IMG/VR virus record: IMGVR_UViG_3300005582_000096
Coordinates: 1-24,946 of that record
DNA length: 24,946 nucleotides
Source: a virus
Reading direction: 5' to 3' (one strand)
The notes under the pieces were generated by a model. It had not been told where the DNA came from and did no database searches. It saw only the letters and a program-made list of their open reading frames with translations. Both the position numbers and the translations under genes were made by a program. This document shows, piece after piece, positions 1 to 19,658 of this stretch (positions are counted from its first letter, which is position 1; each line of letters starts with the position of its first letter).

Positions 1-21
1 CCCAATTACCCGCAAAATGGG

Positions 22-40
22 TTGAGGGAGGGGGCCTCAA
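22..40 (+). other. Small hairpin upstream of terS
   Basis: TTGAGG (22-27) and CCTCAA (35-40) form a 6-bp stem around a 7-base G-rich loop. It can be lengthened by G21-T41 and G20-C42. There is no T-tract, so it is not an intrinsic terminator. It lies in the 64-base leader before the small terminase gene, which otherwise shows no convincing promoter and only G-rich sequence far upstream of the ATG. A role is not known. Confidence 0.25.
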
Positions 41-64
41 TCAAAATCTGATACGATTCCCGGC

Positions 65-520
65 ATGAACCGACTCCCACCCGAACTCCACATTGTTCAC
101 GGCACCAAAGCTGAGCATAAAGGCAGGCCGCTGCCCGAGGCCATACGCCAACGTATACCCAAGCCCGTTTGGCTGGACGATCCTGACTTGTGGGACATGG
201 ATGTTTTTATTACCACCACCGCAGATTTCTTGTGGGACACGTATGGCATCGGCTCAGCGCAAGATCAGCACCTGCTGGGCGCTTTGGCTTTCCAACTTGA
301 CGTTTTTGTCAAGTGCATCAAAGGAGCGAGAGCCGGTGGGCCAGTGACTAAATTTAATGCCGGGGCAACGGTTGGAACAAACCCATATCTGACGACAGGC
401 GAACGGGCGCTAGGCCGAGCTATTATGATAATGAACGAATTAGGCTTGACACCCAGGGGCAGACTGGCAACCAACAAAGTTGAAAGCGGCAAATTTGCTG
501 CACTGATGGCTGGCCCGTGA
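65..520 (+). CDS. terS: Terminase small subunit, P27 family
   Basis: This is the DNA-recognition subunit of the packaging motor, which binds the phage DNA and hands it to the large terminase. The 151-residue product has the P27-family layout. An N-terminal basic stretch (HGTKAEHKGRPLPE, about 12-25) is followed by a proline-rich segment and a helical middle. The C-terminal signature reads TNPYLTTGERALGRAI (about 105-120) and then ELGLTPRGRL. The gene lies directly before the large terminase and overlaps it by four bases (GTGA), which fixes its identity by context. No strong Shine-Dalgarno sequence is seen before the ATG at 65, so the start is the least certain part. The family call is by recognition of the motif and not by a search. 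Confidence 0.82.
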   Translation: MNRLPPELHIVHGTKAEHKGRPLPEAIRQRIPKPVWLDDPDLWDMDVFITTTADFLWDTYGIGSAQDQHLLGALAFQLDVFVKCIKGARAGGPVTKFNAGATVGTNPYLTTGERALGRAIMIMNELGLTPRGRLATNKVESGKFAALMAGP

Positions 521-2178
521 ACTTTGAAGATGGCATCCTATATGCCGTGCGGGTTGTCAAAGGCGAAATACCTGTTTGCCGTAACGTCACGCTTGCCTGC
601 CAGCGGTTTTTAAATCAAATTGAAGATAAAACCTGGGCATACGAATTCCATGCTGATTTTGTAAAACATTTTTTAATGTTTGCTAGCGAGTTGCGTCACA
701 CTAAAGGCCCAGATGCTGGCAAGCTGCTGGTGCTGGAACCGTGGCAGTTATTCATAATCTGCGCCATCTACGGATTTCGAAACAAGCGAAACAAATCGCA
801 GCGCATGGTCACAGATGTGATTGTGTTTGTACCCCGCAAGGCAGGCAAGAGTACATTGACAGCAGTCATTGCCCTGTATGAACTAATCTGGGGCGAAGCA
901 GGCGCAGAGGTTTATACGCTGGCAACAACCAGGGAGCAGGCCGGGATTGTGTTTCATGCTGCCACCGGCTTTGTTGAGGCCATGCCGCAAAACATTGCTG
1001 CCCTGTATAACGTCAGCCGCCATCAGATTACCAAGGCAGGCGACAGTCAGACAGTATTCAAAGCATTGTCTAGGGACACCAAAAAGACAGGCGATGGCAT
1101 GAACCCAGCCTGCGCCATTGTGGACGAAGCCGCTCAGATTGTTGATCGCAACAGCATTGAAGTACTGCACAGCGGCATGGTTGCCAGGCTTAACCCGTTG
1201 CGGATTTACATCACCACCGCCAGTTTTACCAAAGAAACCAAATTCCACGAAGATTTAACCCTGATGGAATCCATGCTGACGGGAGAGGCAACCGACAACC
1301 CACATTGGTTTGGCCTGCTGTACAGTTTAGACGCCGGTGACGATTGGCGAAATCCGACGACCTGGGCCAAAGCAAACCCGATGCACGGCATATCGGTTTT
1401 TGAAAGCGCAATCGCTGAACGGGCAGAAATGGCAAAGCACAAGCCTGCTGCCCTAAACGAATTTCTGTGCAAAACGCTAAACGTCTACGTGAGCGCAAAT
1501 AGCGCCTGGGTTGATCGTGCATACTGGGATGACGCCAAATGCGCTCTGGTGCCCGATAGACAGCCCGAGGCGGTATTTATCGGATTTGACTTGGCAGCTA
1601 CCCGAGACTTGAACGCAGTCTGCACGCTCAAGCGGTTTTCTGATGATGACTACGAAGCAGAGTTTAAATTCTTTTTGCCGTCTGACGGCTACGATTTAAT
1701 TCCCAAGCACTACGGCGACATTTTTGCAATGGCTCGGAAATCAGGCATCCTGCACATTACGCAAGGCAATGTCATGGATGACAGGGAAATCAGCGAGTAC
1801 ATCTTAAAGCAGTGCGAAAAGTACGAAGTCAAGGAAATTGGCTTTGATGCTTACAACGCCGCCAGCCTAGTGGCTCGGCTAAATGATGCTGGCCTGCCGC
1901 TCAAAAAAGTGGGCCAAGGCATGGCAGTTTTAAGCAACCCAAGCAAACACGTAGAGAAGTTGCTGATGCAATACAGTATCAAGCATGACGGCAACCCGTT
2001 TGTAGGATGGCAGCTTGGAAACTGCGAAGTCTACGAAGATGTTAACGGCAACGTCAAAGTCAGGAAAAATGAAGCGGACAAGTCTGCCAAGGTGGACGGC
2101 ATCATATCTCTCATCATTAGTATGCACTGCAACCTTGATAATCCAGTACAATCTGGATTCGGTTTCAGAACTTTTTGA
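517..2178 (+). CDS. terL: Terminase large subunit (ATPase and nuclease)
   Basis: This is the motor and nuclease of DNA packaging. It docks on the portal, pumps DNA with its N-terminal ATPase and cuts concatemers with its C-terminal RNase H-like nuclease. In the 553 residues a variant Walker A reads PRKAGKST (106-113) and Walker B reads CAIVDEA, with D203 and E204 as the likely Mg/catalytic pair. The nuclease acidic residues are probably D358 (FIGFDLA), D444 (IGFDAYN) and D527 (KVDGII). Length and order fit the Terminase_1/HK97-type large subunit. The start is a GTG at 517 inside the stop of terS. The next in-frame Met is about residue 53, too late to keep the N-terminus. The portal gene follows 9 bases later. 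Confidence 0.93.
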   Translation: MNFEDGILYAVRVVKGEIPVCRNVTLACQRFLNQIEDKTWAYEFHADFVKHFLMFASELRHTKGPDAGKLLVLEPWQLFIICAIYGFRNKRNKSQRMVTDVIVFVPRKAGKSTLTAVIALYELIWGEAGAEVYTLATTREQAGIVFHAATGFVEAMPQNIAALYNVSRHQITKAGDSQTVFKALSRDTKKTGDGMNPACAIVDEAAQIVDRNSIEVLHSGMVARLNPLRIYITTASFTKETKFHEDLTLMESMLTGEATDNPHWFGLLYSLDAGDDWRNPTTWAKANPMHGISVFESAIAERAEMAKHKPAALNEFLCKTLNVYVSANSAWVDRAYWDDAKCALVPDRQPEAVFIGFDLAATRDLNAVCTLKRFSDDDYEAEFKFFLPSDGYDLIPKHYGDIFAMARKSGILHITQGNVMDDREISEYILKQCEKYEVKEIGFDAYNAASLVARLNDAGLPLKKVGQGMAVLSNPSKHVEKLLMQYSIKHDGNPFVGWQLGNCEVYEDVNGNVKVRKNEADKSAKVDGIISLIISMHCNLDNPVQSGFGFRTF

Positions 2179-2187
2179 GGTGAAAAC

Positions 2188-3576
2188 ATGGCTTTATTTG
2201 ACATTTTCAAGCAAAAAGCTGTAAAAGAATCTAATTCAATGTTTGGGCAGACTGCCCTTGGCAATAATGTATTGTGGGGCAGCAGCAACAAATACAACAG
2301 CGCCAACAGCCAAATTCTCTACGTCACCACGGGCAGCAGTACAGACGCTGGCAGACCCGTGGACATGAGCATGATGAGTCGAAATTCGACAATTATGGCC
2401 TGTGTTGGAGCCAAAGCCAGGGCAATGGCTCAACTGCCTGTCCGAATTATGTGCGATATGGATGACGGCGGCTATCATGATGCCGTAAAAAGCCCAGAGG
2501 TAAGCGCTAGGGATAAAGCCAAAGCCAAGCAAGTGGCTTATCTATTAGGCAACCCAAACAACTTTCAAAGTGCCTACGAATTCCTGTACCAGTACATTAT
2601 GTGGCATGAGTTATCGGGCGAGGTTTACATCCTGTGGTGGCGCAAAGATCAGGAAAGCAGCACTCAAACCCCGCTAGAAATGTACGTTTTTGATAGCACG
2701 TTAATCAGTACAACCGTCAATGTAACTCGATACCCAAGTTACAGACTTAGTACCCCGGCATACGGTTTTAACCGGGACGAACCGCTTGCAGCGCATCAAG
2801 TTATGCACCTTGTGGACGCTGCCTGGCAGGGAAATGGCGGTTTTAATAAGGGCATTTTGGCGGCAGAATTGATTGGCCTAGATCAAGATATTGACTTGTA
2901 CGCTAACTACGTAATGCAAAACGGGGCCAAGCCTAGCGGAATGTTTGTCACCGAGAACGTCATTCCTGACGGCAAGTACAAGGAAATTGCGGCACGCCTC
3001 AAGGAAGCATGGTCATCAATGACAGGCAGCCGCAACGCAGATCCAAGCAAGCCAGGGCAGGGAATGTTGCTAGATCAGGGCATGAAATACCAACCGCTGG
3101 ATATGTTGACGCTGCAAGATACTGACTGCGCCAAGCTAAAAGAGCAAACTATGAAACGCATTTGCGGTTTGTTTGGCGTGCCGCCAGCAATGATTGGCAT
3201 TGCCGATCAGAAATACAACAACACTCAAACTATGCTGGATGAATTCTACAAAAGCAGTATGTACCCGTTGATCGTCAATGTCCAGCAAAAGCTAAAACAA
3301 CACCTGCTTGTTGGATATCCTAATTTGTGTGTAGAATTTGACACAAGGGCATTTTTGCGCGGTTCACCAGTAGACCAGATGAATTTTTCGGTGGCTGGTG
3401 TAAATGCAGGCATAATGACGGCAAATGAGGCACGGGAATATCTTGGCATGAAAAACATCGACGGCGCGGATGAATTGAAAGCAGGAAAGCCTGGTGATAC
3501 AATTCCCGGCAGCAGCCCTCAAGATACTGGTGGCGGCGGCGGTGGGCAGAGTAGGAAAATGAACATTGGCAAATAA
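2188..3576 (+). CDS. Portal protein, HK97 family
   Basis: This is the dodecameric portal at one capsid vertex, the channel for DNA and the docking site for terminase and connectors. The 462 residues follow the HK97 portal plan. After a short N-terminal MALFDIFKQK comes the segment NSTIMACVGAKARAMAQLP. A clip/stem region follows (AAELIGLDQDIDLYANYV, about 230-247). The family hallmark lies at about 325-360, with ICGLFGVPPAMIGIAD and then YNNTQTMLDEFYKSSMYPL. The C-terminus is Gly/Ser-rich (GGGGGGQSRK) and probably disordered. A good ribosome site (GAGGTG) precedes the ATG. It lies between terL and the protease, the standard order. Confidence 0.93.
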   Translation: MALFDIFKQKAVKESNSMFGQTALGNNVLWGSSNKYNSANSQILYVTTGSSTDAGRPVDMSMMSRNSTIMACVGAKARAMAQLPVRIMCDMDDGGYHDAVKSPEVSARDKAKAKQVAYLLGNPNNFQSAYEFLYQYIMWHELSGEVYILWWRKDQESSTQTPLEMYVFDSTLISTTVNVTRYPSYRLSTPAYGFNRDEPLAAHQVMHLVDAAWQGNGGFNKGILAAELIGLDQDIDLYANYVMQNGAKPSGMFVTENVIPDGKYKEIAARLKEAWSSMTGSRNADPSKPGQGMLLDQGMKYQPLDMLTLQDTDCAKLKEQTMKRICGLFGVPPAMIGIADQKYNNTQTMLDEFYKSSMYPLIVNVQQKLKQHLLVGYPNLCVEFDTRAFLRGSPVDQMNFSVAGVNAGIMTANEAREYLGMKNIDGADELKAGKPGDTIPGSSPQDTGGGGGGQSRKMNIGK

Positions 3577-3739
3577 ACCGCCGCACGAACTGGCAATGTT
3601 GCTTGCAAAGTTTAAGCAAAAAAAGCCGCAGACAATACACGATATGGATAAAACCAAAACAACCGAGGTAATCCATGAACGATCTGTTAATAGTCTGCGA
3701 AGCGCAACTAAATCTCGACAAAAAACCAGGGCTAATTGA
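3566..3739 (+). CDS. Possible small ORF between portal and protease
   Basis: A 57-residue frame (TTG start, beginning MANKPPHELAMLLAKFKQKK) overlaps the end of the portal gene and runs 65 bases into the protease gene in another frame. An AGGAAA lies about 8 bases before the TTG; an ATG at 3596 is the alternative start. The first 20 residues look like a real helical peptide. The last third is only the shifted protease sequence (Arg/Ser/Lys-rich) and looks random. I do not recognise it. The stretch may equally be plain spacer holding the protease ribosome site GAGGTAA. Confidence 0.25.
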   Translation: MANKPPHELAMLLAKFKQKKPQTIHDMDKTKTTEVIHERSVNSLRSATKSRQKTRAN

Positions 3740-4430
3740 AGCCAGGGTTACAAGCTGGGGGCCGAGAGAAGGCGCAGACGGGCGCAGGTTCAACTATCAA
3801 GCTGAAGGCTTTGCAGATTGGGCCAAAGAATTTGAGGCAATGGGCAGGCCGCTGCCAATGTTTGTCAATCACAGCGCAGACGCAATTCCTGTTGGCGAGT
3901 GGATGCATTTTGAGTTTGACGACACCGGCATGACTGCAATGGGCCGACTGTTTACCAACACCACTCAGGGCAGCGACCTTTACAACATAATGCGGGAATC
4001 GCCTGCTATGTTTGGCGGGGTATCTGTTGGCGCATATGCGGAAACGTATCAAATGGTTAACGCTGACGGCGAACCCGATCAATCTGATGAGGCATATTTC
4101 CAGATCACAAAAGGTGGCTTGCGGGAAGTGTCCGTGGTGATGTATCCCAACAATCCAGAAGCCTGCGTCAGCAAGCTGGAATACTTTAGGCCAGATGGGT
4201 CTGCTAATTTAAAGATTTTGGAGCAAGCCTTGCGTGATGCTGGGCTATCTAAAAGTGATGCGGTTGCCGCTGCATCGACTTTCAAAAAGGTGCTGGAGCA
4301 GCGTGATGTTGTCCAAATACCTAATGAAACTGCGCCGAACCAGAGCGACTCTGATGCGGAGGCAACCATACTCGCAGCCCTTGAGCAGCGGGAATTACTG
4401 CAAACTTTGTCTAACCGTCTAAGGAAATAA
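3675..4430 (+). CDS. Prohead (capsid maturation) protease, HK97 type
   Basis: This serine protease with a herpesvirus-protease-like fold is packed into the prohead and trims the N-terminal delta domain of the capsid protein before expansion. The likely catalytic His is H66 (MFVNHSAD) and the Ser is S117 (FGGVSVGAY), followed by the conserved strand GGLREVSVVMYPNNPEA (about 147-163). Residues 175-251 form a charged, helical tail (for example RDAGLSKSDAVAAA) that could mediate scaffold contacts. The length of 251 is usual for the family. The ribosome site GAGGTAA lies 6 bases before the ATG. The stop is 2 bases before the first capsid gene, its expected substrate. Confidence 0.88.
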   Translation: MNDLLIVCEAQLNLDKKPGLIEARVTSWGPREGADGRRFNYQAEGFADWAKEFEAMGRPLPMFVNHSADAIPVGEWMHFEFDDTGMTAMGRLFTNTTQGSDLYNIMRESPAMFGGVSVGAYAETYQMVNADGEPDQSDEAYFQITKGGLREVSVVMYPNNPEACVSKLEYFRPDGSANLKILEQALRDAGLSKSDAVAAASTFKKVLEQRDVVQIPNETAPNQSDSDAEATILAALEQRELLQTLSNRLRK

Positions 4431-4432
4431 TC

Positions 4433-5776
4433 ATGTCCCAAGTCATCATCGAAAAACTTGACGCTATCGAAGCCGCTAATGCCGCCAAGATTGCTGAAGT
4501 TACCAGCGCAGCTACTGCTGCAATTGAAACCGCCAAAAATGAAATGGCTGAGAAAATCTCGGCGCTTGAGGCAAAAATCAGCACGCTGCAAATGCCTGCC
4601 GTTATTCGTCCGATTGCCAAAACAATTCGAACCGATGTGAATCGCTCTGTTCGTGAGCAACTGAAATCATTTTATTCCGCAAACAATCGTGTAGAAAAAG
4701 CACTCAAGATTTTTGCCGATGAAAATCAATATCTAGCCTATATGAACGAAGCCAGTGCGCTAACTGGCGGCGGCAATGGTATTGGTGGACGCACGGGTTA
4801 CGATCCTGTGTTTGCTGCAATGCGCCTGGCTAATCCAATGCGTGGCTTGAGCCGCACCGTGGTTACTGATGGCTCTAGCTACCAATTCCGCAGCAAAACG
4901 GGCAACGCAGGCGCAACCTGGGGTTACACCGTGCAAAACAACGGCGGCGCTACAACCCAGGACATGAACATTTGGCAACTGGTGCTGCAAGATTTGAACG
5001 TGCAATTCCCTGTTCGTACTGCTGCATTGGACGACATTGACGGGCTAGAAGGCACCATTGTTGACGATATGCTGATGGAGTTTGCCCAGGCCGAAGCGCA
5101 GTCCATGATTCAGAACAGCGATCAAACCAACTCGCCTAATACTTACGGCGGCACATCTGGTTTGCGTGGCCTAGATCAGTATCCTGGCGCAAATGCTACG
5201 TATACCGGCGGCACTACCAGCGCAGCGGCTTACGGCACCAGCGGCACGGGCAGTGCTACCGGCCTGCACAGCATTGCAACCTACGATCAATTGACTAGCA
5301 ACGTCAATACTGTTGGCGCAAATGCAATAACGTACAAAGACGTTATTAATCTTTGCTACGCATTGCCTCAGCAATATTGGACGACTAGCGCCTGTTTTAT
5401 GGTCAACCCTGTGCTGGCGCAAGCTATCCGTGGCCTGCAAGACACCAATGGACGCCCAATTTTTAACAGCATGGAATCGCTGAATCCAGACGGCATCATT
5501 GGGCAACTGTTGGGCTTTAATGTCGTGATGAACAAATATCTCGACAACCCAAGCCAAGCAACCACCGGCAGCGCAGGCACCACATCCATGTATCCGATGT
5601 ATTTTGGCGATTGGCAAACCGGCCACACCATCATTGATCGTATGGACATGGTGATGCGCCGCTACGATCAAACGCTGCCCGGCTCGATAACTTTCTACGG
5701 CGAAAAACGGTTGGCAACCAGCATCCGTGATCCGAACGCCATTATTCGTTATCGCTCCACCGGCACAGCGACCTAA
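4433..5776 (+). CDS. Major capsid protein 1, HK97 fold, with N-terminal delta-like arm
   Basis: This is the shell protein of the head. The 447 residues divide into two parts. Residues 1-55 are an Ala/Glu/Lys-rich helix of coiled-coil type (IEKLDAIEAANAAKIAEV and on), the expected delta/scaffold domain. The HK97-fold body runs from about residue 100 to the end. The body begins with ASALTGGGNGIGGRT (107-121) and continues with FAAMRLANPMRGLSRTVV, PVRTAALDDI and DDMLMEFAQAEAQSM. It ends with SITFYGEKRLATSIRDPNA. The junction near residue 105 is a plausible protease cut site, but none is proven. The ribosome site AAGGAA is 7 bases before the ATG. A strong terminator follows, after which a second homologous capsid gene begins. 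Between the terminator and this gene's stop there is no other gene. Confidence 0.92.
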   Translation: MSQVIIEKLDAIEAANAAKIAEVTSAATAAIETAKNEMAEKISALEAKISTLQMPAVIRPIAKTIRTDVNRSVREQLKSFYSANNRVEKALKIFADENQYLAYMNEASALTGGGNGIGGRTGYDPVFAAMRLANPMRGLSRTVVTDGSSYQFRSKTGNAGATWGYTVQNNGGATTQDMNIWQLVLQDLNVQFPVRTAALDDIDGLEGTIVDDMLMEFAQAEAQSMIQNSDQTNSPNTYGGTSGLRGLDQYPGANATYTGGTTSAAAYGTSGTGSATGLHSIATYDQLTSNVNTVGANAITYKDVINLCYALPQQYWTTSACFMVNPVLAQAIRGLQDTNGRPIFNSMESLNPDGIIGQLLGFNVVMNKYLDNPSQATTGSAGTTSMYPMYFGDWQTGHTIIDRMDMVMRRYDQTLPGSITFYGEKRLATSIRDPNAIIRYRSTGTAT

Positions 5777-5785
5777 GTTGCCATT

Positions 5786-5818
5786 GCAGGGAGGGGTTGG
5801 ACTCTCCCTGCCTTTTTT
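5786..5818 (+). terminator. Intrinsic terminator between the two capsid genes
   Basis: An 8-bp perfect stem GCAGGGAG (5786-5793) / CTCCCTGC (5804-5811) with a 10-base loop is followed by C and six T (5813-5818). It lies 9 bases after the stop of capsid gene 1 and 19 bases before the start of capsid gene 2. This is the only clear intrinsic terminator in the window. It should end a share of transcripts after capsid gene 1, giving more capsid 1 than capsid 2 and downstream products unless antitermination acts. Confidence 0.85.
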
Positions 5819-5837
5819 AACCATTCGGGAAAATCAA

Positions 5838-6875
5838 ATGATTACAGAACGCATTTTGTCGGGCATCAAGAAAACTTTGCACGAAGGCCATGCAGTCAAA
5901 ATTGATTTAACCGAAGCCTCAGCCCTCACTGGTTCCGGAAACGGAATTGGTGGGCGCACTTTCTTTGATAACGCCTTTGCCGCGCTGCGTTTTGCAAATC
6001 CAATCCGAGAATTGTCTAGGGTAATTCCTGCGGCTGGCTCTAGCGTGCAGTTTGTCGCAAAGACAGGTAACGCTGCAAACTCGACAAACCCTTGGCTTTA
6101 CGCTGCCACCCCTGACACTGGCTCACCTAACACTGCCACCAGCATTTGGCAATTGCCAACCCGAGTAGTCAGCGCCAGCTTGCCCGTGCGTACGGCGGTA
6201 ATGAGCGACATCAATTATTTGAATGAAACTCTGGTTGAAGACATGATGCTTGAATTTGCACAGTTGGAAGGTGCAAGCATGGTGCTTAATAACGATCAAA
6301 CCGGCTCTAGCACGACAAGCACAGGCAGCACTAATGGATTGCGAGGGCTTAATTACTACACGACTAGCAGCAGCGCAGCCGCTTATGGCTCATCTGGCAC
6401 TGCAATTACAGACGGCATCCACACTTTGCTGACGGTATCGCAAAACGGCGCAGCACTTGTATACGATGATTTAGTCAATCTGGCAAAAAGTTTTCCCGCA
6501 CAATATTGGAATCTGCCCGGCTGCGCTTGGATGATGCATCCAAACACGATTCACGATTTGCGTCAGCTTAAAGCGGCAAGCAGCGGTAACGCTAGCCGAT
6601 TGTTGGCAGAAACTGGTGATGATGATGGTGGCGCCGTAGCTAATATTTTTGGCTGGCCTGTAATTGCAAACCCAAATATGGAAACCGTTGCGGCTGGCAA
6701 ATTTACAATGTATCTTGCTAATTGGCCCCGGTTTGTAACCATTGCAGATGTTGAGGAAATGACTGTGCAAGCGATGGAGCAAAGCGCACCAGGGTTTATC
6801 ACACTGTACGCCGAACGCCGAATGGTAAGCACTGTGCGTGATCCGTTTGCAGGCGTGCGTCTGGTTGGAGTTTAA
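5838..6875 (+). CDS. Second HK97-fold major capsid-like protein, without delta arm
   Basis: This 345-residue protein is homologous to capsid protein 1 along the whole HK97-fold body. It shares EASALTGSGNGIGGRT (26-41), FANPIRELSRV, AKTGNAA, LPVRTAVMSDI, VEDMMLEFAQLEG and the C-terminal LYAERRMVSTVRDPFAG. It has only about 26 residues before the shared ASALTG, against 106 in capsid 1, so the coiled-coil delta arm is missing. The chosen start ATG at 5838 has GGGA 7 bases upstream. The frame is open further upstream, but only through the end of capsid 1 and the terminator. Likely roles are a vertex (penton) form, a co-assembling subunit or a capsid paralogue with a new function. Synonymous positions differ widely, so the duplication is not recent. 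Confidence 0.85.
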   Translation: MITERILSGIKKTLHEGHAVKIDLTEASALTGSGNGIGGRTFFDNAFAALRFANPIRELSRVIPAAGSSVQFVAKTGNAANSTNPWLYAATPDTGSPNTATSIWQLPTRVVSASLPVRTAVMSDINYLNETLVEDMMLEFAQLEGASMVLNNDQTGSSTTSTGSTNGLRGLNYYTTSSSAAAYGSSGTAITDGIHTLLTVSQNGAALVYDDLVNLAKSFPAQYWNLPGCAWMMHPNTIHDLRQLKAASSGNASRLLAETGDDDGGAVANIFGWPVIANPNMETVAAGKFTMYLANWPRFVTIADVEEMTVQAMEQSAPGFITLYAERRMVSTVRDPFAGVRLVGV

Positions 6876-6877
6876 CA

Positions 6878-7537
6878 ATGTCCAGCGAAATCCTTGGCGC
6901 ACAAGGTGGGGCAACCCGCAACCCGTTTAATTACTCAAAAATTGAGCAGTTAAACCGGGATGTAGTGACGCCCTGGCTAACGCTGGAAGAAATAACCCAG
7001 CAGCTAAATCTGTTTGACGATGAAAGCCAAGACGCCTATTTGAGTAGCCTGGAACTGGCGACAAGGTTTGCGATTGAAGACTATTTGGGAATGTCCATAT
7101 TTGCGATGACGTACCGGGTTTGGTACGGCGCACAAGGAACCATCACCGCACCGATGGCGCTAGATTTGCCAGCAGTCAGCCAGAATCAGTACCCTACACA
7201 GGCCGGGATAACAATTAACTCAGTCGGCTACTACAACAACAGCGCACCGCCAACCCTTACCCTGCTAACAGCATCAACTTACTACTACGATGCCAGCGGC
7301 AACCGGGTTATCCTGACTAGCCTGCCGACGATCACCAGCGACATGGCAAACCCGATTGTTGTTAACTACACAACCGCCGCTAACCCGCTACAGACGTATC
7401 CTGCCATTAAACAGGCTGGTTTGCTGCTGCTTACGCACCTTTACAACCAGCGCAGCAACAGCACTGAGGCATCGCTCAAAAATATTCCGTTTGGCGTAGA
7501 TACACTTTTGCGCCCGTACAAAGAATTGGTAATGTAA
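6878..7537 (+). CDS. Head-tail connector protein, gp6-like
   Basis: This protein probably forms the first ring below the portal. The 219 residues hold the connector signature PWLTLEEITQQLNLFDD (about 32-48) followed by a helix with the family pattern SSLELATRFAIEDYLG. After it come a beta segment (MTYRVWYG) and C-terminal helices with PAIKQAGLLLLTHLYNQR, the last part being the typical end of gp6-like/TIGR02215 connectors. An insertion of about 60 residues rich in Thr/Tyr/Asn lies in the middle. The gene starts 2 bases after capsid 2 and shares one base with the next gene (TAATG). Confidence 0.82.
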   Translation: MSSEILGAQGGATRNPFNYSKIEQLNRDVVTPWLTLEEITQQLNLFDDESQDAYLSSLELATRFAIEDYLGMSIFAMTYRVWYGAQGTITAPMALDLPAVSQNQYPTQAGITINSVGYYNNSAPPTLTLLTASTYYYDASGNRVILTSLPTITSDMANPIVVNYTTAANPLQTYPAIKQAGLLLLTHLYNQRSNSTEASLKNIPFGVDTLLRPYKELVM

Positions 7538-7881
7538 TGGCGATTGCACGTTTTGAAAACATTGCAATCAATAATCTAACCTTCAGCCTAACGGCTTTTG
7601 GTGAGCAAACCACAACCACGACAAAATGGTTTGACACCCGAGCAACAGTGTCGGCGGTAGGCAATAATCTAAAAATCTCAGAAAAATATCGGCTGTACGA
7701 TAACCTAGTGCGGTTTCGTTTGAACTACACACCGAATATGCGGACAATTGCTAACTCGCAGCATTTGTTTTCAATTACGTACAGGACGCAAGATTGGCGC
7801 ATTAATGATGTGCAAGAATCAGATGATCGCATGAGCGTGTTAATAATGGCGTACCGCAATGATCCGGTAACTGCAACATGA
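7537..7881 (+). CDS. Head closure / head-tail joining protein
   Basis: This is the small beta-barrel protein expected to plug the connector after packaging. The 114 residues follow the head-tail adaptor pattern. A central strand KWFDTRATVSAVGN is followed by YDNLVRFRLNYTPNMRTI, then FSITYRTQDWRINDVQ and a final strand RMSVLIMAYR. The strand with a conserved aromatic residue and a WRI near the end is typical of the Phage_H_T_join family. It is coupled to the connector before it (TAATG) and overlaps the next gene by four bases (ATGA). The family is inferred from pattern and position; sequence conservation in this family is low. Confidence 0.72.
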   Translation: MAIARFENIAINNLTFSLTAFGEQTTTTTKWFDTRATVSAVGNNLKISEKYRLYDNLVRFRLNYTPNMRTIANSQHLFSITYRTQDWRINDVQESDDRMSVLIMAYRNDPVTAT

Positions 7882-8297
7882 CGGCACAGCAAAACCCTGT
7901 TACCTATGCCAGGGCCATCCAAGCGGCATTGACAACCATTGTCACGCCTGTGCCCGTTTATGCTACCTTTAACCGTAACTTTGCAACCGAGCCAAAATTT
8001 GTAACTTGGATGCTGCGAAACATTCATCAGCCCGTCTACACCGGCAGCGTGCAATCCGTCAAGGGAATTGATACGCCAGTATTTCAAATCAGTATTTTTA
8101 CCCAAGTCATTGAAGACGGTTTTACAATCAGCAATCAGATACTACAATCGCTCCACGGCTACTCTGGATTGTTTGGCGGTGCAACCTACGGCATACAGAT
8201 CAGCAAGGCCGATGTGCAATGGCTTTACAACACCTACGACAACGACGAGAAACTTGGACAAGTAATCTTAGACTGCACACTAGATATACCAACCTGA
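7878..8297 (+). CDS. Putative tail terminator / neck protein (DUF3168-like)
   Basis: This 139-residue protein has an N-terminal helix with AIQAALTTIVTPVPVYAT (about 13-30), the usual opening of DUF3168-like tail terminators. Beta strands with PVFQISIFTQV follow, then a helix and a closing beta pair. It lies right after the head closure gene and right before the major tail gene, the normal place of the tail-terminator ring that caps the tail tube. Members of this family are very divergent, so position carries much of the call. An HK97 gp9-like neck protein is the alternative. Confidence 0.55.
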   Translation: MTAQQNPVTYARAIQAALTTIVTPVPVYATFNRNFATEPKFVTWMLRNIHQPVYTGSVQSVKGIDTPVFQISIFTQVIEDGFTISNQILQSLHGYSGLFGGATYGIQISKADVQWLYNTYDNDEKLGQVILDCTLDIPT

Positions 8298-8340
8298 TAA
8301 GACAATAAATTTTTTACCCTCCCAACAAAGGAACTTATCA
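8295..8340 (+). promoter_or_regulatory. Inverted repeat around the major tail start
   Basis: TGATAAG (8295-8301) and CTTATCA (8334-8340) are a perfect 7-bp inverted repeat with a 32-base loop. The left arm includes the stop of the gene before, and the right arm includes the first base of the major tail ATG. The ribosome site AAAGGA lies in the loop. The RNA pairing could slow or couple translation of the major tail gene. A run of six T (8310-8315) lies inside the loop and is not after a stem. Confidence 0.3.
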
Positions 8341-8834
8341 TGGCTCTCCCGACAAAAGTGTTACCCGGCTTTACCGCCACAATGTATGCTCAACCTAGCG
8401 CAACGCCAACGCCTATTACTACTGCGAATTTGAGCGTTTTAGGCAGCATTTCGCCACTGGCAATCAGCGGCAACTTGGTGCCTGTTGAAGCAATCCCGGC
8501 ATTTGGGCAAGACGATGCCGTAGCATCCTTTATGGTTGCTGGCTCCCGTCAATCCGACAAAATCCCGGTGCAATCAGCACCGACTAGCATGAGCATTACA
8601 GCGGCATGGAATCCAAGCGATACAGTGTTGCTGCTTTTGCGTGCAGACGCCTACAACGGCACTATAGATCGCACCTACGTGATTGCTGCAACCGATGGCA
8701 CTAATACTATCTATTACGCTTTCAACGGCAGGGTTAGCCAGTGGACAATTGACAGCGCACCTGGTGCCGAGGCCAAAGTTAACTTTACGATCCAGCCCCG
8801 TGGCAACCAGTACGGCTGGAGCAACACGGTATGA
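8340..8834 (+). CDS. Major tail protein (tail tube)
   Basis: This is probably the repeating subunit of the tail tube. The 164 residues are Ser/Thr/Ala-rich and beta-type. Single strands such as ASFMVAGSRQSDKIPVQ (about 61-77) and a C-terminal YYAFNGRVSQWTIDSAPG followed by VNFTIQPRG resemble the closing strands of lambda V/HK97-type tube proteins. Its own ribosome site (AAAGGAAC) after a 42-base gap is stronger than those of neighbouring genes, as expected for an abundant protein. Position between tail terminator and chaperone genes agrees. The fold is inferred. Confidence 0.75.
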   Translation: MALPTKVLPGFTATMYAQPSATPTPITTANLSVLGSISPLAISGNLVPVEAIPAFGQDDAVASFMVAGSRQSDKIPVQSAPTSMSITAAWNPSDTVLLLLRADAYNGTIDRTYVIAATDGTNTIYYAFNGRVSQWTIDSAPGAEAKVNFTIQPRGNQYGWSNTV

Positions 8835-9022
8835 CAGCAATAGATGCGGTGCTGGCAGAAATGACTGCCAGTTACGGCGACCTAGCTGCGCTTGCACGGC
8901 AGCAGGTAGTCAGCGCCGAGGATATTGCCGAGGCGCTGGCAGAGGCAGACACAGATTCAGCGGAGTATGTCTGCCTCAAACTCTTGGAAAAAAATGTCCG
9001 ACAAGATACAGAACACGAATGA
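8831..9022 (+). CDS. Small acidic protein of unknown function
   Basis: This 63-residue acidic, Ala/Glu-rich, mostly helical protein (AEDIAEALAEADTDSAEY) begins in the ATGA overlap with the major tail gene and ends inside the next small gene. I do not recognise the family. Genes at this place often encode tail assembly factors. Here the true chaperone pair lies further down, so a distinct small tail factor is possible. Start choice rests on the overlap only. Confidence 0.55.
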   Translation: MTAIDAVLAEMTASYGDLAALARQQVVSAEDIAEALAEADTDSAEYVCLKLLEKNVRQDTEHE

Positions 9023-9215
9023 TCTGCTGAATTTTTTGGTAACTCAAGCCGAATCCCGCAAGGATTGGTTTGGGTTTACCCAGCAAAAGATGACAGGCAT
9101 CCAACTTGTGCATCAAATAGCCGCCAATCATGCCGACACAATGACGCCAGAACAGATCGTAAAATTTGTCGTAGAACTTAACAACTTAATGTACAAAGAT
9201 ATTATCCGAGGATGA
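8994..9215 (+). CDS. Small helical protein of unknown function
   Basis: The 73-residue product starts MSDKIQNTNDLLNFLV and contains two predicted helices (QLVHQIAANHADTMTPEQIVK is the linker region). The start ATG at 8994 follows GGAAAAAA; the frame is open upstream to 8925, but that part is the shifted sequence of the previous gene. It overlaps the end of the 63-residue gene by 29 bases and ends one base before the gp10-like gene. The family is not known to me; it is conserved-looking but without a motif. Confidence 0.55.
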   Translation: MSDKIQNTNDLLNFLVTQAESRKDWFGFTQQKMTGIQLVHQIAANHADTMTPEQIVKFVVELNNLMYKDIIRG

Positions 9216-9216
9216 C

Positions 9217-9690
9217 ATGAGCGTCAGCATAAAACTTGAAGGCGTTGGCAGTGTCCAGGCAGTCTTTCGAGAATTAGCTGACGAAATTGGCGACAAAAAA
9301 GCCAACAGCAAAATCCTAATCCCGGCAGTGCGGGAGGCCATGAAGCCAGTATTGGCTAAAGCAATTGCAGAAGCACCAGAGGATACTGGTGGCCTCAAGC
9401 GTAGTTTGCAAGTAGAAGCACGCCGCCCTAATCGCAAAGACAAACGATCGAAATACATCGCCAACACTGACACCGTTATCTCGCTGGTGACAACCGCATC
9501 AGGGAAAAAATTAGCCAAACTGGGCATAAAAAGCGATGCTAGGGCAATGGCTCAAGAATTTGGAACCGCACGTAATCCAAAACATTCTTATTTGCGTGTT
9601 GCGTTAGAATCTGAATCGCAGAGTACAGTAAACACTCTTGCCCAAATATTGGCAAGACGGATTGACAAATACAAGAAAGCAAATCTATGA
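9217..9690 (+). CDS. HK97 gp10-like tail component
   Basis: This protein belongs to the HK97 gp10 family, which acts at the head-tail interface (neck or tail-completion). The 157 residues contain the two hallmarks of the family. APEDTGGLKRSL (53-64) matches the AP-DTG-L pattern. EFGTARNPKHSYLRVA (114-129) matches the EFGT...PFLRPA pattern. The C-terminus is a basic helix. The ribosome site GAGGA precedes the ATG. In HK97 this gene is before the major tail gene; here it lies after it. It shares ATGA with the chaperone gene. Confidence 0.82.
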   Translation: MSVSIKLEGVGSVQAVFRELADEIGDKKANSKILIPAVREAMKPVLAKAIAEAPEDTGGLKRSLQVEARRPNRKDKRSKYIANTDTVISLVTTASGKKLAKLGIKSDARAMAQEFGTARNPKHSYLRVALESESQSTVNTLAQILARRIDKYKKANL

Positions 9691-10154
9691 CAAGATTATC
9701 CAGCGCACTGGGAACAGGCGCAGAATTCCGCATCAAAAAGTTTGAACTTGGGGGCCATGCCTTCCGAGTGCGAGTGCCATTGGTGAGCGAAAGCGATGCC
9801 ATGCACAGCCGCATCATCAAACCTGACAGCGCAGCAATTGACAAAATTTACGCTGACTTGACAAAATCCCTAGACGAATTTAAAACGCTAAAAAACGAAG
9901 AATTGGTTTTTACAGAAAACGATGTTGTCGTGTCTGGGCGCTCAATGCGGGAGGCCGCTACAAACAAGGCAATGATGGAGGCACGCATCACCGAGATGAT
10001 TCGCCTGCTCCAGCCAGAAAACCCAGCTAACACACTGGACGACATTACCTACGCTGAGATTGAACTGGAATGGCCCTTGAGTGTTCAGTTGGCCCTAGTA
10101 GAAAAGATCAATGAAGTTATCAGCCCAGGCTATAAGGAGAACCGGGGAAACTGA
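9687..10154 (+). CDS. Tail assembly chaperone, short (G-like) form
   Basis: The 155-residue product is the likely G-like chaperone that keeps the tape measure in an assembly-ready state. FELGGHAFRVRVPL (19-32) and DSAAIDKIYADLTKSLDEFK are visible. A long acidic/helical C-terminus ends in PGYKENRGN. The gene ends in a GGGAAAC slippery heptamer followed directly by TGA, so part of the ribosomes should shift to -1 and make the longer form. It starts in the ATGA overlap with the gp10-like gene and lies upstream of the tape measure, the usual place of this pair. The name G is by analogy with lambda; sequence similarity to lambda G is not claimed. Confidence 0.8.
   Translation: MTRLSSALGTGAEFRIKKFELGGHAFRVRVPLVSESDAMHSRIIKPDSAAIDKIYADLTKSLDEFKTLKNEELVFTENDVVVSGRSMREAATNKAMMEARITEMIRLLQPENPANTLDDITYAEIELEWPLSVQLALVEKINEVISPGYKENRGN
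10145..10151 (+). promoter_or_regulatory. Programmed -1 ribosomal frameshift site GGGAAAC
   Basis: The heptamer G GGA AAC sits exactly in the zero frame of the short chaperone gene (codons GGA AAC, next codon TGA). This is the X XXY YYZ form of a -1 slippery site; lambda uses GGGAAAG at its G/GT junction. After slipping, reading continues as CTG ATT GGC and stays open to 10510. The second frame has no ATG near its beginning. No strong downstream stem was seen by eye. Confidence 0.88.
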
Positions 10155-10510
10155 TTGGCTCGTTGAGAGAACAAGTCGCAGCGGCGATGGTCTTCAACGG
10201 GCATACACCAGAATCAATTGCTGCCTTAGATCAAATCACCATGCTGCAAATCCAAACAATGTACGCTGACGGGGTAATTGGCAATCATGGCCTGCTGGCG
10301 CAGCTTGCCGTATTGACAACCGGCGTATTCAACTACATCCGTCCCCCCCACGCAGCCCCGTACAGGCTTGCAGGCACGCTCGGCGCAGTGCATGACTACC
10401 TTTACCCTCCAGCAAGCCAGGAACAGCTTGCAGCGCAGGCCAATGACAGCCTGTTAGCGTTTATGGTGCAGGCACCAGGCTTTAATTCGGAGAAATTTAA
10501 TTATGGCTAA
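10151..10510 (+). CDS. Tail assembly chaperone, T domain made by frameshift (GT-like fusion)
   Basis: This frame supplies the C-terminal part of a predicted 274-residue GT-like fusion: 155 residues of the short form plus 119 from this frame, starting LIGSLREQVAAAMV. The frame opens right at the slippery site and has no ATG or ribosome site near its start, only a TTG at 10163, so frameshift expression is much more likely than separate initiation. The T part would recruit the tape measure and tail tube subunits, as in lambda. Residues such as QTMYADGVIGNHGLLAQL are helical. It overlaps the tape measure start by 8 bases, which ties the chaperone to its client. Confidence 0.82.
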   Translation: MIGSLREQVAAAMVFNGHTPESIAALDQITMLQIQTMYADGVIGNHGLLAQLAVLTTGVFNYIRPPHAAPYRLAGTLGAVHDYLYPPASQEQLAAQANDSLLAFMVQAPGFNSEKFNYG

Positions 10511-13097
10511 CATTGCTCGGCTCGGTGTAGCCCTTGGCCTAAACAGCGCCGAATTTGTTACTGGTATAGATGCCGCATCTAGAAAATTAGATAACTTTGG
10601 CGCAGCAGCAATTGGCATGGCTAAAAATGCTGTGGCAGTGTTAGCTGCTGCTTTTGTTGCGGCGACTTTTAAAGCAGTTGCGTATGCTGATGAAATTGCA
10701 GATGTAGCAGCAGCCAATGACATTGCAATTGACTCAATTATCAAATTAACCAATGCTTTGGAAAATTCTGGAGGCAAAGGTGAAAACGCTGGGAAGATGA
10801 TTGCCAGCTTTACCGATTTTGTAGACAAAGCGGCAAAAGGCTCATTTGAAGGACAAAAAACTTTTAGCGATCTAGGCATATCACTTCAAGACATTGGCAG
10901 TATGTCTACGCAGCAGTTGTTGCAAAAAACAACTCAAGCAATAGCAGACATGGAAGATCCACTAACCCGAAACGCTCGGGCTGCTGACGCATTTGGTAAA
11001 TCTGCCAAAGGCGTGGACATGGTGGAACTTGCCAGGGGGTTTAAAGAAGGCACTGGAGCAACACTAGAACAGGAGCAGGCAATCAAAGATGCAGCAGAAG
11101 CATTTGACACTTTTAGGAGCATCGGCAGAGATATTGCCCTGTTAATTCTTACCTCAATTGGGCCTCAATTAAAAGCTGTTGCTGATTACATGAAATTAGC
11201 ATCATCAGAAACCAGTGCTTTTGGTGTTGTTTTTGGTTCAGTTTTTAAAACAATTGCACACGGAATGTCAGACTTGGCATTTATAACTAAAGGTTTTTCG
11301 GATGATATTGCACACGCAATAAAAAGTTTAGAAACTTTAACCTTATATTTAATGATAGGGAAATTATCAAAAGGCTTTGACAAATTTGCTCAAGACGTAA
11401 AAGAATATAACAAAAAACGTAAACAAGCTAGAGAAGAATTAGATGCATTTCAACAACAATTATTAGGCAATGAAACAAAAGCACAACGCATGGGGGCGGG
11501 TTTCCAAGATCCTCGGATTGTCACGCCAGATGATGATGTACAACGTGAAGTAAAAACTCCAAAAGAAGTTTTTGCAAAGAATTTTGAATTAGAAAAAGCA
11601 AGATTGGCAAATCAATATGCCGTTACAAATAATCTTATTAAAAGTTATGAAGCAGAAGCTAATCAAATAAAGCAAGATCAAAACAAAGCGTATGCAGAAG
11701 CAAGATTAGAAATAAAACAAAAAAACATTACAGAAGAAAATAAATTTGAATCAATAAATGCCAACATATTAAAAGAAAAATTGTTAAGCATTGATAAAAA
11801 TTATCTTGAAAAAATAGCGGCATTGAAATACAAATACAAACAAGAAGCAATTAAAAAAGAATTTGATTTAGACAAACTCAGATTAGAAAATGAATTTGCT
11901 GCAATTGTAAAATATAACGATGATGAGGGTAAATTACAATTTGCATTTCTTAGCGAAGAATCCAAAATAGAAAAAGAATACAAAGGCAAAACAGCGCAAG
12001 CAATTTTAGAAAATAAGCAAAAAAATATACTTGAAGAAAATCAATTTGTAGGTGCAAATGCTTTGCAGTTAACGTACAAATTAGGGGCAATTGATGCCGA
12101 ATATTATGCAAATAAAAAAGCGCGTGCTGATAAATATAGAGAAGAAGAAGCGCAACGCAACTTAGATCAAACAAATGAAATAAACGAAATATTTAATAAA
12201 GAAGAAATTAGAAGAGGGCAACGACTAAAAGCCATAGAAGATATTGCAGATCAATCCAGAGCGCAATTGGTTAATTTGGAAATGGCTCAAGAATTATTTC
12301 TAATAGATCAAAAATCTAGGTACATGAAAAAAGAAGACGTGGACTTAGAAAAAGAATTGCTACAGATCAAATACAAGCATGACGAAGTAGTATTAAGTAT
12401 TTACAAAAATACTCAATTAACTGAGGACGCAAAAGAAATAGCCAATGATTTAGAAAACAGAAACCTAGCAATAACAATTGCACTAGCCAAGGAACGTTTG
12501 CAAATATTAAAAGATCAAAAATCAGGCGGCATGATGGAAGGTTTTCTATTCCGCATGGACACGTTTGGCAAAGACATGGAAACCAGTTTTGAAGCTGGCG
12601 GCAAAGCATTTGACTCAATGATGGGCAGCATGACTAAAGCCTTAGACGAATTTGTAACCACAGGCAAATTAAATTTTGGAGATTTCGCAAAATCAGTCAT
12701 TAAAGATATGTTGGCAATACAACTGCGAGCATCTGCAACTAATTTGTTTTCCATGTTGGGAAAAGCATATGTGTCAACAGTAACAGGAGGCAATACAGCG
12801 CAACAAAACTTTCGAAAATTAGAGTACAGAGCAGAAGGTGGCCCGGTAGACAGCGGCGGCGCATACATGGTTGGCGAACGTGGGCCAGAATTGTTTGTAC
12901 CTCGCAGCGCAGGCGCAATCGTGCCCAACCACTCAATGGCAATGATGGGCGGCTCTACCAACAACATCACAAACTATAATATTCAAGCAATTGATACCAA
13001 GTCATTTGAAGATCGCATCCTGGGCAGCAGCAAAGCAGTCTGGGCAGCAAACGCCTACGGAGCCAAAAACTTATCGCTCGGCAGGGGAAGAACATGA
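10503..13097 (+). CDS. Tail tape measure protein
   Basis: This protein sets tail length and is ejected with the DNA. The 864 residues are arranged as follows. The N-terminus contains a hydrophobic Ala-rich segment (about 32-65) that may cross or insert into a membrane. Residues 80-290 are mixed helical. A long charged coiled coil spans about 300-670. The C-terminus is lambda-type, with LDEFVTTGKLNFGDFAKSVI (about 713-732) and the tail AEGGPVDSGGAYMVGERGPE. The Gly-rich end stays close to lambda gpH-type proteins. At about 0.15 nm per residue it would give a tail of roughly 130 nm. The coiled-coil part is markedly A-rich in DNA and holds a duplicated unit (11580-11860 and 11860-12160). It starts inside the GT frame. 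Confidence 0.92.
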   Translation: MANIARLGVALGLNSAEFVTGIDAASRKLDNFGAAAIGMAKNAVAVLAAAFVAATFKAVAYADEIADVAAANDIAIDSIIKLTNALENSGGKGENAGKMIASFTDFVDKAAKGSFEGQKTFSDLGISLQDIGSMSTQQLLQKTTQAIADMEDPLTRNARAADAFGKSAKGVDMVELARGFKEGTGATLEQEQAIKDAAEAFDTFRSIGRDIALLILTSIGPQLKAVADYMKLASSETSAFGVVFGSVFKTIAHGMSDLAFITKGFSDDIAHAIKSLETLTLYLMIGKLSKGFDKFAQDVKEYNKKRKQAREELDAFQQQLLGNETKAQRMGAGFQDPRIVTPDDDVQREVKTPKEVFAKNFELEKARLANQYAVTNNLIKSYEAEANQIKQDQNKAYAEARLEIKQKNITEENKFESINANILKEKLLSIDKNYLEKIAALKYKYKQEAIKKEFDLDKLRLENEFAAIVKYNDDEGKLQFAFLSEESKIEKEYKGKTAQAILENKQKNILEENQFVGANALQLTYKLGAIDAEYYANKKARADKYREEEAQRNLDQTNEINEIFNKEEIRRGQRLKAIEDIADQSRAQLVNLEMAQELFLIDQKSRYMKKEDVDLEKELLQIKYKHDEVVLSIYKNTQLTEDAKEIANDLENRNLAITIALAKERLQILKDQKSGGMMEGFLFRMDTFGKDMETSFEAGGKAFDSMMGSMTKALDEFVTTGKLNFGDFAKSVIKDMLAIQLRASATNLFSMLGKAYVSTVTGGNTAQQNFRKLEYRAEGGPVDSGGAYMVGERGPELFVPRSAGAIVPNHSMAMMGGSTNNITNYNIQAIDTKSFEDRILGSSKAVWAANAYGAKNLSLGRGRT

Positions 13098-13744
13098 GTT
13101 TCCAAACCATCTTTGAAATCAGCCAAAGCATTAGCGTCCAGAACCGGCGCACTGTCGGCCAGCAAGTCAGCAGATCAGGCCAGGTGCGGGTTGCTGAATA
13201 CTTAACGTCTGTGCCGTGGTCATTTACCGTCAGGCCACATTCGTATCTGTACTATCCGCAAGTGCGTGGCATCATTCAAGTGATTGACAACAAAGATCGG
13301 CAATTGCCCGAGACAATCACTTTTGCCAGCAGCTTGTTGAGTTGGTTTGACGAATATAAAGGCGGCTTAACAAGTGGGCAGGCAGCAGCCCTAACGCTTG
13401 CAGCAGTGCCAGCAGCCAACGCCACCACAATCACAGTTGGCAACCTGCCAAGCGTTTCAGCAGGTACTGTGGTGTTTGCGGCGGGTGATTTTCTTCAAAT
13501 TGGCGTGTACCCGTACAAAGTTACCGCCGAGGTTTTGCGAGGCGGCGGCTCTACAGTCAGCGTCACCTTGCACCGCCCTGTAATTGGCACGCCCACGACA
13601 GGCACCCTAACCGCAGTTGGCTCGGCCTGCACGTTTTATCTGCTGGCGGCACAATGTCCTACCTACACACTTAACCCGATGACCTCGGGCGCATTTGTCC
13701 AGTGGGACGGTGACTTTGTGTTTATTGAGGACATTGTCGGATGA
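13094..13744 (+). CDS. Putative distal tail / minor tail protein
   Basis: The 216-residue protein follows the tape measure in ATGA overlap, where lambda encodes gpM and other phages encode the distal tail ring. The N-terminal half contains SGQVRVAEYLTSVPWSFTV (about 28-46) and RPHSYLYYPQVRGIIQVI, mixed beta strands. An Ala/Thr/Val-rich stretch follows (112-180). The C-terminal VQWDGDFVFIEDIVG closes the fold. A link between tube end and tip complex is the likely role. I do not recognise a specific motif; the call rests on position and on the beta-rich composition. Confidence 0.6.
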   Translation: MSFQTIFEISQSISVQNRRTVGQQVSRSGQVRVAEYLTSVPWSFTVRPHSYLYYPQVRGIIQVIDNKDRQLPETITFASSLLSWFDEYKGGLTSGQAAALTLAAVPAANATTITVGNLPSVSAGTVVFAAGDFLQIGVYPYKVTAEVLRGGGSTVSVTLHRPVIGTPTTGTLTAVGSACTFYLLAAQCPTYTLNPMTSGAFVQWDGDFVFIEDIVG

Positions 13745-14394
13745 CTACCACAATGGCTGCATTGAGCAGCCCATCCATTATCCAAGCCGAATTTATTCGG
13801 CTAGTTACCAGCACGCAAACTTATTATTTTTGTAATGCCGCAGCGCCCATTACTGTAAGCGGCATGACGTTTAGCAACCTGGGCAGCTTGTTAAGTATTA
13901 GCGCAATTGACAGAAATATCAAAGCCAACAGCGCAGACTTAGCAATTTCTCTTACTGGTGTAGACGGTACTAATGTTGCGCTAGTACTTGCAGCCAATAT
14001 TAAAGGCAGTGAAATATTTGTTTATCGTGGATTTTTAGATAGCAATAATCAAATTATTATGACGCCAAGCCAGCAATGGTTTACACGATATACCGGCATT
14101 GTCAGCAACTGTTCTATTACTGAAGATTTTAACGATCAGCTAAGAACAAGAATTGCCACTGTAGGCATTACCTGCGCCAGCTTTAGAACCATACTAGAGA
14201 ACCGAATCCAAGGCATTAAAACGACTCCCAAGGCGTGGAATTTTATTTATGCAGCAGACACTAGCATGAACCGTGTCCCAGTGATTGCAGCCACCTATTT
14301 TGATTTTGGCAAGCCGCCGCAGTCTGCAACCGTCAGTAGCAACACATCAAACGTCCAAACAACTTTCCTCGAAGGCGGGAGGGATAGCGGATGA
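13741..14394 (+). CDS. Putative minor tail protein, gpL-like position
   Basis: The 217 residues are beta-rich and Thr/Ser-rich. Features are an N-terminal RLVTSTQTYYFCNAAAPITV, the segment GFLDSNNQIIMTPSQQWFTRY (about 97-117) and a C-terminal KAWNFIYAADTSMNRVPVI followed by a Thr/Ser tail. The pattern of a reported beta domain plus an assembly tail is common for proteins between the tape measure and the tip protein. It lies in the gpL slot and shares ATGA with both neighbours. A zinc or iron-sulfur cluster pattern, as reported for lambda gpL, is not visible: the Cys residues are few and spread. Confidence 0.55.
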   Translation: MTTTMAALSSPSIIQAEFIRLVTSTQTYYFCNAAAPITVSGMTFSNLGSLLSISAIDRNIKANSADLAISLTGVDGTNVALVLAANIKGSEIFVYRGFLDSNNQIIMTPSQQWFTRYTGIVSNCSITEDFNDQLRTRIATVGITCASFRTILENRIQGIKTTPKAWNFIYAADTSMNRVPVIAATYFDFGKPPQSATVSSNTSNVQTTFLEGGRDSG

Positions 14395-14840
14395 TCCGTG
14401 AAGCCAACAAGCACGATATGCCTGCATTGCTGCAAATGATGCGGGACTACAGCACTCAGACGCCTGTGCCTGCATTGCAAGAGGCGGCAGCGCATGACGA
14501 GGCGCACGTTGCAAACTTGATGACGCAAATGATGGCTGGGCGTGGCTTTGTGTTAATTGACAACGAGTGCCGAGGATTTATTGCGGCACTTATTACCACC
14601 AATGTCTGGTGCCCAGAAGTTTACGAACTGCACGAACTGGCCTGGTGGGTAAAGCCAGAACATAGAAACGGAACCGTGGGCGGCAGGCTTTGGAAAGAAT
14701 TTGATCGGCTGGCAACAGACTTAATTGATGACGGGCGCATTGATGTAGCAGTCACCGCTGTGATGGCTAACAACTCATGGATTGATTACACCAAACGAGG
14801 TTATGCTCCAATGCAAGCCACATTCTTTCGGGTGCAGTAA
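14391..14840 (+). CDS. GNAT-like acetyltransferase inside the tail operon
   Basis: This 149-residue protein has the GNAT layout. The opening is MIREANKHDMPALLQMMRDY (1-20). Strand 4 and the acetyl-CoA loop read HELAWWVKPEHR (81-92) and RNGTVGGRL (92-100), a variant of the R/Q-x-x-G-x-G/A loop with Thr at the first Gly. The closing motif reads NNSWIDYTKRGYAP, the usual C-terminal alpha4-beta6 region. An amine or acyl-acceptor protein, or a small metabolite, could be the substrate. It lies between the minor tail gene and the tip gene, overlapping both, in the place often held by the NlpC/P60-type tail peptidase. A tail role, a cargo role or modification of phage or host proteins cannot be told apart from sequence. 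Confidence 0.8.
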   Translation: MIREANKHDMPALLQMMRDYSTQTPVPALQEAAAHDEAHVANLMTQMMAGRGFVLIDNECRGFIAALITTNVWCPEVYELHELAWWVKPEHRNGTVGGRLWKEFDRLATDLIDDGRIDVAVTAVMANNSWIDYTKRGYAPMQATFFRVQ

Positions 14841-18274: not shown

Positions 18275-18296
18275 AATTACAGTACAAGAATCGTAG

Positions 18297-18314
18297 CCCT
18301 GCGAGTTAGCAGGG
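18297..18314 (+). promoter_or_regulatory. Hairpin in the gap before the fibre genes
   Basis: CCCTGC (18297-18302) and GCAGGG (18309-18314) pair around a 6-base loop GAGTTA. It lies 22 bases after the tip protein stop and 31 bases before the TTG start of the next gene. No T-tract follows, so it is not a normal intrinsic terminator. It could be an mRNA-processing or stability element at the border between tip gene and fibre genes. Confidence 0.4.
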
Positions 18315-18345
18315 AGCGTCACTACCCGAGGAAGGGGAATCAGTC

Positions 18346-19652: not shown

Positions 19653-19658
19653 AAAATC

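Follow-up and report, generated by a model that had tools for sequence, protein, structure and literature searches.

Two adjacent HK97-fold capsid genes in a freshwater phage group and a possible minor shell role of the second protein

Two capsid genes in one head operon

The window analysed in this study is a linear IMG/VR record of 24,946 bases (IMGVR_UViG_3300005582_000096). Its structural operon is read in the forward direction and contains the genes of a TerS-like protein, TerL, the portal protein and an S78 protease, followed by two capsid genes, designated cap1 and cap2, the gene of a head–tail adaptor, further connector genes and the genes of the major tail protein, the tape measure and the tail tip. 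This gene content and order indicate a siphovirus-type head–tail module. A gene coding for a GNAT acetyltransferase (14391–14840; phrog_1249, PF00583) was also seen within the tail-tip cluster, just 5' of the long tail protein gene. The features of the head region are the following:

517..2178, + strand: terminase large subunit (PF20441, 8e-37; PF03354, 5e-29)
2188..3576, + strand: portal protein (PF04860, 9.9e-59)
3675..4430, + strand: prohead protease of the S78 family, 251 aa (PF04586, 7.2e-9)
4433..5776, + strand: cap1, major capsid protein with a delta-like N-terminal tail, 447 aa (PF05065, 1.1e-31)
5786..5818, + strand: intrinsic-terminator-like hairpin between cap1 and cap2, a 10-pair stem (5786–5811) followed by CTTTTTT
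5838..6875, + strand: cap2, a second capsid paralogue with the HK97 fold but no long tail, 345 aa (PF05065, 2.3e-21); proposed minor or vertex protein
6878..7537, + strand: head–tail adaptor Ad1 (gp6-like), directly after cap2 (PF05135, 2.5e-6; phrog_40, 1.1e-11)

A preliminary description of this DNA had placed two neighbouring homologous capsid genes at 4433–6875, and the comparison of their products bore this out. Both open reading frames are intact (4433–5776 and 5838–6875). BLASTP aligned the two proteins over the whole capsid domain with 127 of 345 residues identical (37%, E 2e-62), a profile–profile comparison covered 314 columns (E 9e-87), and both proteins passed the 24.2-bit cut-off of PF05065 (Phage_capsid), Cap1 with 110.7 bits and Cap2 with 76.9 bits. 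The first open reading frame call had set the start of cap2 at GTG 5727, inside cap1; this start was rejected, as the homologues begin at the conserved MxITExIL, which corresponds to ATG 5838.

The unequal N-termini pointed out in the same description were likewise found: 105 residues precede the EASALTG motif in Cap1 and 25 in Cap2. From residue 104 on, Cap1 comprises 344 aa (36.8 kDa), while the entire Cap2 has 345 aa (36.7 kDa). The delta-like tail of Cap1 spans residues 1 to about 104, with helices predicted at 2–51 and 65–82 in the AlphaFold model. Cap1 thus has what marks an HK97-like delta domain, namely a helical tail of ~100 residues before the N-arm and a protease gene upstream, and this tail is the expected substrate of the S78 prohead protease. 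Cap2, with its 25 residues, has no tail of this kind. The earlier claim that Cap2 is devoid of a delta arm holds as far as the long helix (2–51 in Cap1) is concerned, but a short N-terminal helix, predicted at residues 2–16, is kept.

The predicted structures of both proteins matched HK97-fold capsids, with the RcGTA capsid on top, and the sequence profiles agree with this assignment. The AlphaFold models, which were of low confidence (pLDDT 55 for Cap1 and 62 for Cap2), gave Foldseek E-values of 7.4e-10 for Cap1 against the RcGTA capsid, and of 1.5e-14 and 1.8e-11 for Cap2 against the RcGTA and HK97 capsids, respectively. Since these models were too weak for the mapping of interfaces, the domain borders were taken from the alignment to HK97 and RcGTA. 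The consensus shared by Cap1 and Cap2 amounts to 62% in the N-arm, 56% in the spine region, 41% in the E-loop and 38–43% in the A domain, which is the more variable part also within Cap1 and within Cap2. The higher identity of the N-arm and spine compared with the A domain and E-loop would be expected of proteins having common inter-capsomer contacts and a differing capsomer centre, and may faintly hint at such an arrangement. The loops after GLRGL.QY, before the Y-D-V helix and at about 374–383 are longer in Cap1 than in Cap2, and these differences are consistent.

Conservation and origin of the pair

The scans of viral contigs revealed at least 593 confirmed relatives with Cap2 and at least 572 with the joint profile. 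The loci were sampled among the matches listed, starting from Cap2, from Cap1 or from the joint profile. Both genes were present in the same order in all 231 judgeable loci among these matches (229 with cap1 followed by cap2, and two with both genes, one frame being broken), and no loss was observed; the check on whether the pair stays together in metagenomes therefore came out in its favour. The lone copies among the matches listed all end within 90 bases of the contig end on the side of the partner (20/20). One further locus, in which too little of the gene was present, was left out of the pair count. It should be noted that some contigs occur twice in the sample: the 198 complete pairs correspond to 169 distinct sequences and to 116 clusters at 95%. 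The existence of this family rules out that cap2 is a contig-specific artefact or an assembly duplicate. The frame breaks lie in cap1 of locus L181 (4491–5840) and in cap2 of locus L190 (5880–6865), and are either assembly errors or real. One contig, IMGVR_UViG_3300022748_000017 (75,987 bases; L163 and L241), bears two cap1/cap2 pairs that differ from each other and are separated by about 40 kb, as though the assembly had fused the genomes of two related phages.

Among the named phages, the pair was detected in only one of 50,697 records, that of the Methylophilaceae phage P19250A (KX815270). This cultured member of the group has a genome of 38.7 kb, its two proteins are 59% and 56% identical to Cap1 and Cap2, and they are annotated as a "gene transfer agent capsid protein" and a "hypothetical protein", respectively, with no role given to the latter. 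The pair was also present on three MAG contigs. The marine OM43 phage Venkman, which is reported to be close to P19250A (PMC8163748), gave no match to the pair in the collection scanned. The pair had been called unusual, and this is true in comparison with the named phages, but within a large freshwater phage group, most of it uncultured, the presence of both genes is the rule. No description of the capsid pair in these phages was found in the literature searched, the paper on the genome of P19250A (Moon et al. 2017) lying outside that search. A wide PF05065 search for tandem genes in bacterial genomes recovered only a single copy in a genome that is known to have two, so the base rate of such tandems obtained in this way is unusable.

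In the phylogenetic tree, all Cap2 proteins group in a single clade (100/100) with a stem of 1.79, Cap1 is placed on the opposite side, and four single-capsid phages lie outside both. One clade on such a long stem points to a single old split, which, judging from these sequences, predates the whole sampled group. The AU test of Cap1 as a clade of its own versus Cap2 arising inside Cap1 gave p 0.64. The median pairwise dN/dS of about 0.12 for cap1 and about 0.10 for cap2 shows that purifying selection acts strongly on the two genes. We consider it very unlikely that cap2 was acquired from another phage instead of by duplication of cap1, a scenario that concerns the origin only and would fit any role of the protein. 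The long stem of the Cap2 clade would agree with it, but the nearest known relatives of Cap1 are the Cap2 proteins and vice versa, while the named single-capsid phages show only about 20–30% identity over a partial length and branch outside both.

The hairpin between the genes and the expected dose of Cap2

The strong hairpin at 5786–5811 with its CTTTTTT tract is the top terminator-like site within positions 1–20,000 of the window (dinucleotide z-score −2.1). A terminator-like site was found between cap1 and cap2 in 38 of 43 representatives versus 6 of 860 shuffles, while elsewhere it was seen in 0/44 cases before cap1 and in 1/44 after cap2. The hairpin as such was present in all 43 representatives. 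Its arms form 6.0 of 6 pairs with their own partners and 4.3 when swapped among the members, so the pairing is kept although the letters change. In one locus (L252), about 310 extra bases lie between cap1 and cap2, and the hairpin after cap1 is still present.

Nearly all cap1 genes are preceded by the Shine–Dalgarno sequence AAGG or AAGGA, and most cap2 genes by AGGA or none. Together with the terminator hairpin, this weaker site suggests that less Cap2 than Cap1 is probably produced, which is compatible with any minor role. Meanwhile, a putative terminator is annotated after gp5 of HK97, and the single-capsid phages Bcep176, VW-6S and Azospirillum phage Cd also have a hairpin after the capsid gene. 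The hairpin is thus older than the pair and marks the insertion site of cap2 rather than being a new dose device. A hairpin immediately downstream of the gene for the major capsid protein, as in HK97, T4 and further phages with one capsid gene, perhaps belongs to the general layout of head operons; cap2 lies downstream of the capsid terminator, where its dose is predicted not to go alongside that of cap1.

On balance, we lean towards the explanation that Cap2 is a dedicated, lower-dose minor capsid subunit derived from a duplication of cap1, most likely forming the pentons at the 11 vertices without a portal, and that it evolved independently of T4. According to this proposal, Cap1 would be the scaffolded major capsid protein, the delta-like tail of which (~104 residues) would guide prohead assembly and would probably be cut off by the S78 protease. 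Cap2, having arisen through duplication of cap1, would be produced in a smaller yield from a gene with a weaker ribosome site behind an intrinsic terminator. Having no long tail of its own, it would enter the shell built by Cap1 and take the penton sites of the 11 non-portal vertices in a gp24-like manner, with Cap1 scaffolding the hexamers. We infer the lower dose of Cap2, its presence in the virion, its vertex position and the cleavage of Cap1.

Other roles of Cap2 were weighed against this proposal. A co-major role in a mixed shell, with hetero-capsomers of Cap1 and Cap2 throughout the head as in Family 2B encapsulins, has a precedent in HK97-fold proteins encoded by one operon (PMC12407261), and the two proteins are still 37% identical with common N-arm and spine motifs. 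However, in almost every member the genes are set apart by a terminator-like hairpin, the Shine–Dalgarno sequence of cap2 is weaker and the loops of the two proteins are consistently different, so we regard such a shell as unlikely. The invariant pairing, the terminator, the weaker ribosome site, the purifying selection and the layout resembling T4 genes 23 and 24 favour the minor, gp24-like role over it. Another arrangement, in which the two HK97-fold proteins of this widespread lineage of small freshwater siphophages would meet in a manner unlike that of T4, the tail-less paralogue of mature size being mixed into the capsomers or occupying particular positions and its share being set by the intergenic terminator, seems to us rather doubtful.

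It is quite unlikely that Cap2 acts as an assembly factor in a few copies, either beside the portal or in setting the size or shape of the head, instead of being a regular part of the shell. The gene directly precedes that of the head–tail adaptor and both are predicted to have lower expression, but the capsid domain of Cap2 is complete, and the motifs conserved between it and Cap1 in the N-arm and in the C-terminal P-domain are not obviously needed off the shell. The same conserved motifs argue for shell contacts and make a role outside the virion, as a decoy or a regulator, highly improbable; the gene being a remnant is no more credible, given its dN/dS of about 0.10 and its loss in none of the judgeable loci.

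Relation to known two-protein and single-protein shells

In HK97-fold shells, one protein normally forms both hexamers and pentamers. Besides the two-component encapsulins, T4 is named as the other known case of such a shell made from more than one protein (2025 paper, PMC12407261). This kind of system, in which HK97-fold paralogues split the work of the shell, is known from T4; in small siphophages, an independently evolved example would be a novelty. Our results suggest a second, independent origin of a dedicated minor shell protein in a simple phage family, with the head corners as its most likely place. A second phage lineage with small genomes, paralogues of 37% identity and a cultured member would provide a simple system for asking what turns an HK97-fold subunit into a pentamer former, and whether scaffolded proheads admit subunits that lack a delta domain of their own.

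At the sequence level, Cap2 was rejected as a homologue of gp24: BLASTP of Cap2 versus gp24 gave no significant match, and gp24 belongs to PF07068, whereas Cap1 and Cap2 belong to PF05065. T4 also differs in being a large prolate myophage that encodes its scaffold in separate genes, and its gp23 and gp24 are about 20% identical compared with 37% for Cap1 and Cap2. Meanwhile, the T4 genes follow the order protease, scaffold, 23, a hairpin with TTTTTT, the homing endonuclease gene segD and 24, and the number of N-terminal residues removed is 10 in gp24 versus 65 in gp23 (PMC9958956). Both systems thus have HK97-fold paralogues in the order protease, major capsid protein, hairpin with a U tract and paralogue with a shorter N-terminal extension, and gene duplication is thought to be the origin of gp23 and gp24, as of Cap1 and Cap2. 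The duplication and the T4 analogy put forward in the preliminary description are upheld. As known here from the genes, Cap2 corresponds to a T4-type vertex protein in being a downstream paralogue of the major capsid protein with a shorter N-terminal extension. Since Cap2 has no sequence homology to gp24, the parallel in gene order, terminator and N-terminal extension supports the vertex role by analogy only.

The Family 2B encapsulin of Streptomyces lydicus has two HK97-fold shell proteins, which are encoded by one operon and form mixed capsomers of variable make-up (PMC12407261). It is not a virus and has no portal, terminase or tail genes; its shell operon stands alone, whereas the pair described here sits between the portal and protease genes and the head–tail adaptor gene. 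The nearest solved relative of both Cap1 and Cap2, in sequence and in structure, is the major capsid protein of RcGTA (6tba, 6tb9), which has a single capsid protein. HK97 shares with this locus the same order of the portal, the protease, the major capsid protein with a delta tail of about 100 residues, the terminator and Ad1. The difference is that HK97 has one capsid gene, while here cap2 occupies the place between the terminator and Ad1.
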